From a virus: a stretch of 21,857 nt of DNA. The notes under the pieces were generated by a model. It searched no databases. It saw only the letters and a program-made list of their open reading frames with translations, and had not been told where the DNA came from. Of this stretch, positions 8,746-18,343 are shown one piece after another. The translations under genes were made by a program, and so were the position numbers. The stretch covers positions 1-21,857 of the IMG/VR virus record IMGVR_UViG_3300020429_000015; one strand, written 5' to 3'. Position 1 is the stretch's first letter, and each line of letters opens with the position of its first letter.

Positions 8746-9654
8746 ATGCCAGTAATGAAAGCAAAAAAAGCTCAAATTAAACCTGAAGAGCTAATCGTGA
8801 ATGAATTAATTGAAGCGATTGAATCAGGAAAAGGTAAAAATTTATGGCGTAAAGAATGGTCAGTTAAAGGCGGTTTTAGAAACGTCTTAACTGGGCATGA
8901 ATATCAGGGTTCAAACCCTGCTTTATTATGTTTACAAAGTTCTATTAGAAGATGGCATCTACCTCTATTTATAGGGGCAGGTCAGGCACGTTCCATAAAT
9001 TGTTTACCAAAAAAAGGTTCAAAATCTGCTCGAATTTTACAACCACTTTTGAGAGAATTTGAAACTAAAGAACTTGATGAGAATGGAGACGTTAAAAAAG
9101 GTCAGTATATGAGCTATAAATGCGTTCCAGTATTCAATGTTCAGGACATTCGTGGTTTAGATGATGAAGCATCAAAAAAATTAGAAAAACTAATTGATGA
9201 TGCAGTTCTAACTTCAAAGCCTAGAGAATTAGATGTCAGGGTTAAAGAAGCTCATGATCGTTTATTCCAGTGGGAAAAGCAAATCAACACTCTTGTAAAA
9301 GGTGGAGATAGAGCTTATTACAGAGAATCAAGTGATGAAATTGTAATTCCAAAAAGATACAATTTTAAAAATGACGAATCTTATCTAGCTACATTTGCTC
9401 ATGAAGCGATCCATTCAACAAAGCATAAATCAAGATTAAATAGAAACAATCTTTCTTATGCGAACGAAGAATTAGTTGCTGAGTTAGGTGCATATATCGT
9501 ATGCAACCGACTTCAGATATCTAATTTAGATACAATGAACCATGCCGCTTATTTAGAAAGCTGGTGTCCAATGCTTAGAAAAGATCCAAAGATCTTATTT
9601 AAGTCATTAGCTAACGCTAGTAAAGCTGCTGATCTTGTAATTGGTGAGCAATAA
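8746..9654 (+). CDS. ArdC-like antirestriction protein with zincin domain
   Basis: The 302-residue product has an N-terminal ArdC/TraC-type ssDNA-binding domain (about 10-135; N-V-L-T-G-H-E-Y-Q-G-S-N, W-x-x-x-x-G-Q-A-R pattern variant) and a C-terminal zinc-dependent peptidase-like domain with H-E-A-I-H (219-223) and a downstream E-E-L-V-A-E-L-G-A-Y (241-250) supplying the third metal ligand. Proteins of this family protect incoming DNA from host restriction; the metal site is intact here. The gene has its own terminator, whose loop contains the stop codon, so it forms a stand-alone unit. Leader motif TTCATTTATCC precedes it and no Shine-Dalgarno sequence is seen. Confidence 0.85.
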   Translation: MPVMKAKKAQIKPEELIVNELIEAIESGKGKNLWRKEWSVKGGFRNVLTGHEYQGSNPALLCLQSSIRRWHLPLFIGAGQARSINCLPKKGSKSARILQPLLREFETKELDENGDVKKGQYMSYKCVPVFNVQDIRGLDDEASKKLEKLIDDAVLTSKPRELDVRVKEAHDRLFQWEKQINTLVKGGDRAYYRESSDEIVIPKRYNFKNDESYLATFAHEAIHSTKHKSRLNRNNLSYANEELVAELGAYIVCNRLQISNLDTMNHAAYLESWCPMLRKDPKILFKSLANASKAADLVIGEQ

Positions 9655-14445: not shown

Positions 14446-14673
14446 TCACCCTTTTATTAAACGAATTTCTGGTGCTTCTTCCATCTTTTTAGCTTCTTCT
14501 AATGTCTTATCAATTACAGGTGCAAACATGTCATCTATAGCCCTTCTTATTATTGAAGAAATAGAAACCCCAGGTCGAGTATATTTTTTTAATAAAGCAT
14601 ACTGGGATTTTGTTATTTGAATGGAAATTCTATGTAATGAATGGTCTTCTGATAAAAGTTCAGGTAAAGGCAT
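14446..14673 (-). CDS. Ribbon-helix-helix type regulator
   Basis: The 75-residue product has the R-I-S-I-Q-I-T strand (about 15-21), a first helix K-S-Q-Y-A-L-L-K-K-Y and a second helix I-S-S-I-I-R-R-A-I-D-D-M-F (about 38-50), matching a CopG/Arc-like ribbon-helix-helix fold, plus an acidic helical tail. Such proteins dimerise and bind short palindromes through the strand. It is flanked by its own terminator and by TGTAATA repeats, consistent with a small self-contained regulator gene. The Shine-Dalgarno sequence is not obvious. Confidence 0.65.
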   Translation of the reverse strand: MPLPELLSEDHSLHRISIQITKSQYALLKKYTRPGVSISSIIRRAIDDMFAPVIDKTLEEAKKMEEAPEIRLIKG

Positions 14674-14799: not shown

Positions 14800-15402
14800 T
14801 TATCCCCCAAAAGGGTCTTCATAGGTAAGTAATTTCTTCAAATCAAAACCTTTTGATTTAACTTTTTCCCAAGCTGCCTCAACAGCATCTTGATCCTCTT
14901 CGTCTTGTGGTTCTATTTGAACATCATAATTCCAACGACCTCCTTCTCTATCTAATGAAAGAGAAAGATCCCATGCCATTAGGTTTTTGTACTTCCTGTT
15001 CAAAGATAATTTTCTTATTTTGCTTAAGATTTGATACTGATCGGCTTCTAAAATACGAACCATGCTGTTCTTATAGTCGTAAATAGGCCAAACATAAGTT
15101 TCTTTAGCTTCTGCTGGTTCTGTACTTTGAAACTTTGTTCCTCTTGTGTACGAACCTCCCATTTCTGCAAGGATTTCTTCTTCACTTGGTTTGTCAACAA
15201 ACCTAAATGATTTACCTTTCTCTCCATGAACAGATTCACCATAAATCTTCCAAAAAATTAGGGGATCTTCTTCCAGTAATGCGAAAGAAACTGGCTCTTT
15301 TGGATCGACTTTTGATGGGTTTAAGTATGAAGAAACAAGTGGACGATCCCCCTGCTCTTCTGCTTTTTTGACTTTTTCTTCAAAAGTGGCTGAAAATTTC
15401 AT
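14800..15402 (-). CDS. Probable single-stranded DNA-binding protein
   Basis: The 200-residue product resembles phage OB-fold ssDNA-binding proteins: a central Y-V-W-P-I-Y-D-Y-K-N-S-M-V-R-I-L-E-A (about 103-120) followed by Q-Y-Q-I-L-S-K-I and W-D-L-S-L-S-L-D-R-E-G (about 144-154), which is the pattern 'hydrophobic strand, turn, helix, then strand' in gp32/gp2.5-like proteins. The tail is acidic and ends E-D-P-F-G-G, like the protein-recruiting tips of SSB proteins. It sits divergently beside the primase-helicase gene and has its own terminator. No enzyme motif is seen. The assignment rests on pattern and position, without a search. Confidence 0.6.
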   Translation of the reverse strand: MKFSATFEEKVKKAEEQGDRPLVSSYLNPSKVDPKEPVSFALLEEDPLIFWKIYGESVHGEKGKSFRFVDKPSEEEILAEMGGSYTRGTKFQSTEPAEAKETYVWPIYDYKNSMVRILEADQYQILSKIRKLSLNRKYKNLMAWDLSLSLDREGGRWNYDVQIEPQDEEDQDAVEAAWEKVKSKGFDLKKLLTYEDPFGG

Positions 15403-15575: not shown

Positions 15576-17708
15576 ATGACTATTATTAATTTCGTCAAGA
15601 CTCTTCCTGAAAATTTAGTTTACGCTCCGATATATAAAAAAGATTCTTTCATGAAATCAGGCCGAAAGGCTACTGGCAAGAACCCTTTAGAAGAATCATG
15701 GGAAAGAGATTTTGATAGACATGATGTTGAATTAGCAATAGAAAAGAATCCTGACCTTCAGGCTATTGGTATATATACAGGAATAAGAGGTAAAGGCATT
15801 GTAATTCTTGATATTGATAAAGACCATTCGATACTAAGAAAGAAATGGGCTAAGACGCTTGTAGGTGCTCCTAAGATCACTTCTACTAAGAAAGATGCAG
15901 CAAAGTATATATTTACCGTTCCAGAGGCTTTATGGGGCGAAGTGAAGGGGCATGGGCTTCGTAAGGAAGAAGGTGGTAATTATGAAATTCTTTGGGGAAG
16001 AAGGCAAGGTGTTATATATGGTGCTTACCCTGGTGGACATAGTTCTGAAGAAGGTGTTTATACCTTAACTGGAAGTCTTTCTAATATTCCTGTTGCTCCT
16101 GCTTGGTTAATAGCAGAGATGAAAGCTCCTCCAAAACCTGTTCAGAACAAAAAAGATTTAGATTTCAGTGATAGGACAGAGGACGAAATAGCTCAGATAA
16201 TACATGAATGTCTTTCTGTTATATCTCATCAAGGGCTTGGCAGTAGAGAACATTGGATAAGAGTTGGAATGGCTATTCATTCTGCATTGCCTAACGATCT
16301 TGGGTTGTCTTTATGGTCATTCTGGTCATCTCATGATCCTGACTTTGCTGCTGAATGGGAAGATGCTGGTGATTACGATACTCCCTGTACTGCTTCTTGG
16401 TATTCATTTAAAGGCGGTGGTATTGGTTTAGGTACTTTGATCTGGCTCGCAGACAGAGAAGATCCTGAGAGGCATAGGTTCTCTGCTGAGAATAAAAAGA
16501 TTGTCAAACAGGCAGAAGAAAAACAGGTTCAGGAAATCAGGGCTTCTACTCTTGATTTTGATGAAGTCATAAAACGTGCCAAAAAAATACTCGATCTTGA
16601 TAACCCTGCTGAGATGAATTACAAATTAAATACTTTGGCTTTGAAGTCTGGTTATAGAGATCAATCTTCTTTAGAAAAACTTATTGTCGATCAGATTCAA
16701 TATGAAAGTCAAAAAGGTATTCTGGATTTAGCAGATCTTTATGCTTTAGATATTCAAAGAGAGTACTTGATTCCTGATATTCTTCCTACTCCTTCAGTTG
16801 TTTTGATCTACGGTGCAGGTGGTGATGGTAAATCCATGAGTGCTTGGACTATGGCAAGACACATCGCTACTGGTTCTCCTTTCTTAGTTAGAGGTAGTGA
16901 AGTACCTGTAGAACAGGGAACAGTTCTTTTGCTTAATGGAGATCAACCTCTTACTCAACTCAAAGAACAATTAGAAGAAGTCAATATTCCTTTAGACAGT
17001 AAGGTTAAAATCCAAACTGATTGGCAACTTCAGAGATACGCTCAGTTCATTAAGTTAATGGATCAATACGAACCAAAATTAGTTGTTATCGACTCACTTA
17101 TTGGTTGTAGTGGTGGTAGGGCTTTTGACGAAAACAAATCAGATTTTGCTCAACCTCTTTACTGGCTTACAAGAAATAATGGTGTTCTTTTTCCTAAAAC
17201 AACTATTTTGATTATTCATCACGCTAATAAAAATGGTGGTTTTAGAGGTACTTCTGCTATCAGAGATGCTGTTGATGAAACTTGGAAACTATCTAAGCCT
17301 ACTCAGGAACAGGCTAATAAGGTTGGACGTTCCAGTAGATTTATTACTATCGAAAAATCTAGGTCTGGAAGAATGGGGACTCAAATGATTATGAAGATGA
17401 AAGAGGATCTTACTTTTTCTATTGAAGACTTTACCCCTGAAGTTTCTAACGATCCTTCTTCTCCTACTACCGTTCAAGATAGAGTTCTTCAAAAGTTACG
17501 TTTAATTCACCCAGAAACTTATACCATCAATCAAATGATTCACGATCCAATGGTTGATGGTAAAGATGCTGCTATAAGAAAATCGTTCCAGAGATTATTA
17601 AAGAGAGGATTAATAGAAGTAGTAGAAGATGGAGAGTCTAATAAATCTTATAAAGCTATCCTCGCGCGGGGAGAGGGTGCATATCTTGTCCCATTGGAAG
17701 AATCGTAG
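15576..17708 (+). CDS. Primase-polymerase / RepA-like helicase fusion
   Basis: The 710-residue protein should prime and unwind DNA at the phage origin. Domains in order: an archaeo-eukaryotic-type primase-polymerase (about 1-180) with the metal-binding pair D79-x-D81 in V-I-L-D-I-D and a G-x-Y-P-G-G-H-S-S segment near 149-157; a PriCT-like helical domain (about 205-295) with H-W-I-R-V-G-M-A and W-S-F-W-S; a RecA/RepA-type ATPase with Walker A G-A-G-G-D-G-K-S (413-420), Walker B L-V-V-I-D-S (502-507) and H548-H549 before A-N-K; and a C-terminal winged helix (about 630-695). All motifs are intact. It is preceded by the leader motif and followed by the TGGGACAA array, the first copy of which lies inside its last codons. 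Confidence 0.9.
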   Translation: MTIINFVKTLPENLVYAPIYKKDSFMKSGRKATGKNPLEESWERDFDRHDVELAIEKNPDLQAIGIYTGIRGKGIVILDIDKDHSILRKKWAKTLVGAPKITSTKKDAAKYIFTVPEALWGEVKGHGLRKEEGGNYEILWGRRQGVIYGAYPGGHSSEEGVYTLTGSLSNIPVAPAWLIAEMKAPPKPVQNKKDLDFSDRTEDEIAQIIHECLSVISHQGLGSREHWIRVGMAIHSALPNDLGLSLWSFWSSHDPDFAAEWEDAGDYDTPCTASWYSFKGGGIGLGTLIWLADREDPERHRFSAENKKIVKQAEEKQVQEIRASTLDFDEVIKRAKKILDLDNPAEMNYKLNTLALKSGYRDQSSLEKLIVDQIQYESQKGILDLADLYALDIQREYLIPDILPTPSVVLIYGAGGDGKSMSAWTMARHIATGSPFLVRGSEVPVEQGTVLLLNGDQPLTQLKEQLEEVNIPLDSKVKIQTDWQLQRYAQFIKLMDQYEPKLVVIDSLIGCSGGRAFDENKSDFAQPLYWLTRNNGVLFPKTTILIIHHANKNGGFRGTSAIRDAVDETWKLSKPTQEQANKVGRSSRFITIEKSRSGRMGTQMIMKMKEDLTFSIEDFTPEVSNDPSSPTTVQDRVLQKLRLIHPETYTINQMIHDPMVDGKDAAIRKSFQRLLKRGLIEVVEDGESNKSYKAILARGEGAYLVPLEES

Positions 17709-17866
17709 TTGTGGAGCGTGATTTCAGTGGGACAACACTATGGGACAACTAAGATTGTCCCACGACTGTCCCACACTTTTAGGACTATGGGACAATTATG
17801 CTTGTCCCACTACCTTGTCCCATACCAAATCAATGTTGTGGAACGGGATTACAAGAAATGGGACAA
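17686..17866. repeat. Iteron-like array of nine TGGGACAA octamers
   Basis: TGGGACAA starts at 17728, 17741, 17788 and 17859; its complement TTGTCCCA at 17686, 17755, 17802 and 17815, with one variant CTGTCCCA at 17766. Two pairs form identical palindromes TGGGACAA-N6-TTGTCCCA (17741-17762 and 17788-17809). A 16-base direct repeat with two mismatches, starting GTTGTGGA, lies at 17708-17723 and 17835-17850. Together with the adjacent primase-helicase this looks like a replication origin or a cluster of operators. An ORF across it is repeat-derived and not supported. Confidence 0.75.
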
Positions 17867-17923
17867 TTTAAGGCACTCTCCCCAGGGGAAATCTACTAAT
17901 TAACATCATTAAACTATCATTCT

Positions 17924-18028
17924 ATGAAGACTCAAGAGAAGATTAAAGCTGCACAGCAAAGGATAAAAGAATTAAAAATTTTAATAGAATTATGGACTAA
18001 TAAAAAAGTTAATACAAAGATATTATGA
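17924..18028 (+). CDS. Possible 34-aa helical protein
   Basis: Product M-K-T-Q-E-K-I-K-A-A-Q-Q-R-I-K-E-L-K-I-L-I-E-L-W, amphipathic and basic. Tiny proteins with 'R-I-K-E-L-x-I-L-I-x-x-W' occur in phages. The rest of 17867-18055 contains only AT-rich sequence. No Shine-Dalgarno sequence is seen; support is moderate. Confidence 0.4.
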   Translation: MKTQEKIKAAQQRIKELKILIELWTNKKVNTKIL

Positions 18029-18055
18029 TAATATATTTTTAGAGATTAAGTATCA

Positions 18056-18343
18056 TTGGAACGTGGAAACAAATCAAGAGGTAATAAGAAGTATTACCAT
18101 GTATTAATAGATATAAATAGAGGTAAATTATTTGATAAGTACATTAGAGAAAGCTTAAAAACTAAGCCTACATCTTGGATTCGAGATATTATTTATAATT
18201 TTTTACAAGAAAACATAGACCAAGAAGTGTATAATGAAGCTTTGAAAAAAGATCAAGAAAATTGGAATCAAGTTATTCAGAATCGTCTACAAGGAAGAGC
18301 TTTATCAAAAATGCTAAAGACAATCAGGAAGAACCCAGAGTAG
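18056..18343 (+). CDS. Small basic protein, possibly ribbon-helix-helix
   Basis: The frame has no ATG upstream of the conserved-looking part; TTG 18056 follows an in-frame stop nine bases earlier and is the likely start. The product has Y-Y-H-V-L-I-D-I-N (about 13-21), K-L-F-D-K-Y-I-R-E-S-L-K-T (24-36) and S-W-I-R-D-I-I-Y-N-F-L (39-49), which fits a strand-helix-helix DNA-binding fold, then a long basic helix. A regulator is likely, and its location beside the TGGGACAA array is suggestive. The family is not certain. Confidence 0.5.
   Translation: MERGNKSRGNKKYYHVLIDINRGKLFDKYIRESLKTKPTSWIRDIIYNFLQENIDQEVYNEALKKDQENWNQVIQNRLQGRALSKMLKTIRKNPE

Follow-up and report, generated by a model that had tools for sequence, protein, structure and literature searches.

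Several replicons couple a primase and a helicase to origin recognition. In phage/satellite P4, one polypeptide (alpha) combines a primase, a ring helicase and a C-terminal winged helix that binds repeats at the origin (PMC4234260). In pRN1, ORF904 combines a prim-pol, an SF3 helicase and a winged helix, and requires 166 bp just downstream of the gene and an intact 3' stem-loop without iterons or detected specific binding (PMC4234260); the Bordetella phage BIP-1/BPP-1 type shares a PriCT_2 domain with the protein described here. In the IncQ plasmid RSF1010, iteron binding, helicase and primase functions work together but reside in three separate proteins (RepC, RepA and RepB'). Finally, in PLE, the DNA-binding domain of RepA_N covaries with origin type through domain swapping (PMC8263062).

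We investigated a cluster of short repeats at the end of a primase-helicase gene in a marine phage. The window, that is, the whole stretch analysed, is a 21,857-base virus record (IMGVR_UViG_3300020429_000015). The encoded 710-residue protein resembles P4 alpha in carrying primase, ring helicase and predicted C-terminal winged-helix domains in one chain, but has a prim-pol-like rather than a Toprim primase. Its helicase domain is structurally closest to RSF1010 RepA, although here a single ORF replaces three genes. Unlike at pRN1, the element 3' of the gene is a repeat array apparently read as duplex DNA. In contrast to PLE, changes in motif are accompanied by single-residue changes in one recognition helix. 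CyRepA1-family cyanobacterial plasmid Rep proteins show only weak similarity in the primase region (25% over aa 35-279), and no such array was found around the end of the Rep gene in the Synechococcus elongatus plasmid examined. Comparative evidence strongly supports the original prediction that the array is an origin bound by the winged-helix end of the 710-residue protein, although both binding and origin activity are inferred rather than measured.

A mirror-symmetric repeat array at the 3' end of the primase-helicase gene

Eight exact copies of TGGGACAA, four on each strand, and one copy of TGGGACAG lie at 17686-17866, with no exact copy elsewhere in the record. About 0.7 exact octamers are expected in the whole window, and no shuffle placed more than 2 in 181 bp. 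This confirms the repeats described in the original prediction, with two corrections. The two palindromes (17741-17762 and 17788-17809; 47 b apart), described there as identical, have identical arms but different six-base spacers (CTAAGA and TTATGC). The reported 16-base direct repeat is not exact; the longest exact repeat is 12 b (ACTATGGGACAA), inside a 30-nt repeat that is 87% identical. Importantly, the array is also a nested inverted repeat, which had been missed: around 17775.5, site 1 mirrors site 8, 2 mirrors 7, 3 mirrors 6 and 4 mirrors 5. The features of the locus are as follows.

15576-17708, + strand: 710-aa primase-helicase, the proposed initiator, with a prim-pol-like N-terminus, PriCT_2 (aa 209-292), a RepA-type AAA_25 helicase (about aa 389-555) and a predicted C-terminal winged helix (about aa 633-694)
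17565-17603, + strand: codons of the predicted winged-helix recognition helix (aa 664-676), with the Arg668 codon at 17577-17579
17660-17680, + strand: G+C-rich left outer arm, CCTCGCGCGGGGAGAGGGTGC
17686-17693, - strand: site 1, TGGGACAA, inside the primase ORF
17711-17722, + strand: second element, GTGGAGCGTGAT, 17 b upstream of site 2
17728-17735, + strand: site 2, TGGGACAA
17741-17748, + strand: site 3, TGGGACAA
17755-17762, - strand: site 4, TGGGACAA
17766-17773, - strand: extra site 4b, TGGGACAG, from an 11-bp duplication absent from a 99% identical relative (L001)
17788-17795, + strand: site 5, TGGGACAA
17802-17809, - strand: site 6, TGGGACAA
17815-17822, - strand: site 7, TGGGACAA
17838-17849, + strand: second element, GTGGAACGGGAT, 21 b upstream of site 8
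17859-17866, + strand: site 8, TGGGACAA
17872-17883, + strand: G+C-rich right outer arm, GGCACTCTCCCC
17890-18055, no strand assigned: AT-rich spacer (22% GC), weakly supported as a possible unwinding region

Pfam searches identified PriCT_2 and AAA_25 in the 710-residue protein; among 39 relatives, PriCT_2 was found in 39 and Prim-Pol (PF09250) in 18. A profile search of solved structures by sequence gave no helicase-level hit and no significant winged-helix hit, and folds were compared instead. An AlphaFold model (mean pLDDT 79) searched with Foldseek gave RSF1010 RepA helicase structures as best hits (1nlf, E 2.8e-10; 1olo; 1g8y). Residues 633-694 were modelled as three helices and two strands, the strands following helix 664-676. 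Fur, MarR and ArsR-type winged-helix proteins were among the hits of a separate model of this domain, although no hit fell below E 0.001 and this is therefore fold-level evidence.

Conservation of the array and the residue that tracks its motif

Using the protein and derived profiles, we scanned IMG/VR and, once, genome contigs, obtaining 299 sequences including the window. While no sequenced isolate phage in the collection searched has a relative covering 80% of this protein, hundreds of viral contigs in IMG/VR encode relatives. We read 166 distinct regions 3' of the winged helix, of which 162 (primase-helicases about 50-99% identical) contain at least five good sites, 3 are weak and 1 has a changed motif. 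Decayed arrays with few intact sites were seen beside an intact primase-helicase in four relatives (L039, L166, L196 and L138). The order of sites is -++-+--+ in 156 of the 162 arrays and differs only at sites 3 and 6 in the other six; in one clade (L126, L128 and L129), both sites are flipped, keeping the mirror symmetry. Successive gaps are nearly fixed: 41-45, 11-15, mostly 15-16 (or about 27), variable, 15-16 (or 27), 13-14 and 43-44. In 63 representative lineages, the primase stop codon falls after site 1 in 7, including the window, after sites 3 to 5 in 27 and beyond site 8 in 29, so DNA, not protein, is conserved. In two contigs of about 40 kb with direct terminal repeats, 6 of 6 and 6 of 8 copies of the motif are in the array.

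The variable central gap steps by helical turns (about 11, 21, 32, 43 and 53), as expected for protein on duplex DNA. Observed values lie near 9-11, 20-24, 31-34, 42-45 and 52-55, then 76-77, 87-90 and 98. With one value per cluster, the best period is 10.7 bases (Rayleigh R 0.80, p about 5e-5 against uniform gaps), and R is 0.75 on the gaps of representatives. The lineages are not fully independent and gaps of 76 b and more fit less well. The period of 3 expected from reading frame is absent.

We next examined which protein residue follows the motif. The motif changes between lineages in all sites together (TGGGACA, GTGGACA, CTGGACA or GGGGACA), while positions 3-7, GGACA, are nearly invariant. 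The residue at window position 668, in the predicted recognition helix, follows the first two bases: TG occurs with Arg (77) and Lys (1), GG with Lys (27), CT with His (15) and Gln (16), and GT with Gln (17), Gly (3), Thr (1) and Arg (2). This association was first seen by eye and only then tested by an unbiased column scan, so the strength of the residue choice rests on its rank, first of 684 alignment columns (0.69 against 0.57 for the next, two-base label). Counting changes branch by branch on a tree built without the C-terminal end, residue 668 again ranks first of 528 columns (r 0.365; columns of similar variability average 0, sd 0.09). Independent contrasts are few but one-sided, with 4 agreeing and 0 opposing for G versus T at base 2, and 3 agreeing and 0 opposing for TG versus GG; the sign tests are small (5 and 3 pairs) and not significant alone. 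The rule holds in 59 of 63 representatives and is broken in four. Pairing Arg or Lys with G, and Gln or His otherwise, would be chemically sensible.

Relatives at about 42% identity keep arrays with other motifs, replaced in all sites and ending in ACA: TTTTGACA (relative L203), CTGTTGACA (L217) and weaker GGTTTATACA arrays (L206, L208 and others); L194 has ATGCGACA. L203 and L217 clearly exceed shuffled controls and the GGTTTATACA group does so narrowly, while three of the most distant relatives (L205, L214 and L220) gave no array above the control. No array was seen beside the more distant AAA_25 helicases examined (S-CBS4, Manatee Spring phage, and Anabaena and Synechococcus plasmids). A search of viral contigs for the exact palindrome found 16 stretches, three of them close kin of the window; the others, which were not examined, may well be chance in so large a collection.

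A proposed self-recognising origin and its alternatives

On the basis of these observations, we propose that the array is the phage's replication origin and that the adjacent 710-residue protein is its initiator, a reading to which we assign a probability of roughly 0.8. In this inferred scheme, the C-terminal winged helix binds each NNGGACA site as duplex DNA, with Arg668 reading the G at the second position of TGGGACA. Copies would fill two half-arrays of four sites facing each other, aligned on one face of the helix. The RepA-type ring helicase domains, brought in head to head, would then open the DNA and the prim-pol domain would prime, so that replication can leave in both directions. The conserved position, order, spacing and motif, the residue-base covariation and the domain make-up support this scheme, whereas binding, unwinding, priming and direction are inferred only, and head-to-head loading of two rings is an inference from symmetry. 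GC skew was uninformative, as it follows gene direction, and no AT-rich dip beside the array was consistent across clusters. As in iteron-type origins, multiple copies of one short motif lie next to the putative initiator gene, but they are mirror-symmetric rather than in direct orientation. pRN1 is the closest experimental precedent, and P4 alpha the precedent for a winged helix of a primase-helicase binding origin repeats; as the present system differs from each in helicase class, primase class or origin form, we did not assign it to any of these systems. In our judgement, origin-initiator pairs rarely show a residue-to-base code at single-residue resolution. Such a code should allow orthogonal replicons to be built and origins to be found in metagenomic phages from sequence alone, and offers a check on the stem-loop model proposed for prim-pol replicons such as pRN1 and BIP-1.

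More tentatively, the system may be a self-loading bacterial-virus counterpart of the SV40 T-antigen/papillomavirus E1 scheme built on an SF4 (RepA/DnaB-like) ring. Each four-site half-array would assemble one hexamer of a prim-pol/helicase/winged-helix chain, head to head and phased by helical turns, without a separate loader, and origin specificity would switch between phage lineages through one recognition-helix residue. This remains possible but is less likely than not.

Among the alternatives, the one that survives best, although unlikely, is that the initiator binds the array but that the array controls copy number or the gene's own expression, like an incompatibility or P4 crr-type element. 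The covariation indicates who reads the array, not what follows, and in the window the array precedes a rightward gene (18056). However, it is the only cluster of the motif in the near-complete contigs, so no separate origin array of the same motif exists there, and it sits at the 3' end of the gene, with the genes after it differing between lineages.

A structured single-stranded element (a DNA or RNA stem-loop), as proposed for the pRN1 origin, appears less likely still. The strand folds much better than shuffles (DNA z -5.3, RNA z -7.3), as any nested inverted repeat must, and pRN1 itself needs an intact 3' stem-loop. However, bases flanking mirror or hairpin partners are no more complementary than those of other site pairs, sites 3 and 6 flip together in the L126 clade, the gaps step by helical turns and the motif tracks a winged-helix residue. 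We therefore prefer a protein complex on one face of the duplex. An Rfam search found nothing above a family's gathering score.

The original prediction named a regulator-bound operator array, perhaps for the product of 18056-18343, as its main alternative. From its sequence this product is a predicted ribbon-helix-helix protein, although no curated family named it so. Homologues are kept downstream in nearly all clusters, and proteins of this type may often bind short repeat arrays, leaving an operator or centromere conceivable. However, they lie at a varying distance (0.3-5.2 kb) and track the motif poorly, the best column scoring 0.44 against 0.92 for residue 668 on the same 99 loci; this alternative is therefore disfavoured. 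Finally, selection for a protein tail of the primase, suggested by the 29 of 63 lineages in which the whole array is translated and ends in a conserved AW..W tail, is contradicted by the window clade, in which sites 2-8 are non-coding yet equally conserved.

Additional conserved elements and neighbouring genes

A second DNA element, CTGGARCGKGAT, always on the + strand, is superimposed on the symmetric array. A match of at least 9/12 lies 17-18 b upstream of site 2 in 45 of 63 lineages and 21-22 b upstream of site 8 in 25 of 63, and the element persists in non-coding lineages. Outer inverted arms of the CTCGCG type occur on both sides in 50 of 63 representative lineages by a lenient pattern. 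Arms of the CTCGCGCG type are conserved at the DNA level at 17660-17680 in the window and on both flanks in L139, L038 and others; a right CGCGAG-like arm is present in most other lineages, while in the window clade it is replaced by GGCACTCTCCCC.

Next to the primase, a 200-aa protein of unknown function (14800-15402) is conserved in all 17 clusters and is a candidate replication partner. A second small ribbon-helix-helix gene (14446-14673; RHH_3, below the Pfam cut-off) was found in only some relatives. The window also encodes an ArdC-like anti-restriction protein with a zincin-like metallopeptidase domain (8746-9654). Notably, downstream of the array in L123, L135 and L138 are large ORFs of about 610-645 aa that look by eye like a family A DNA polymerase with an exonuclease domain.
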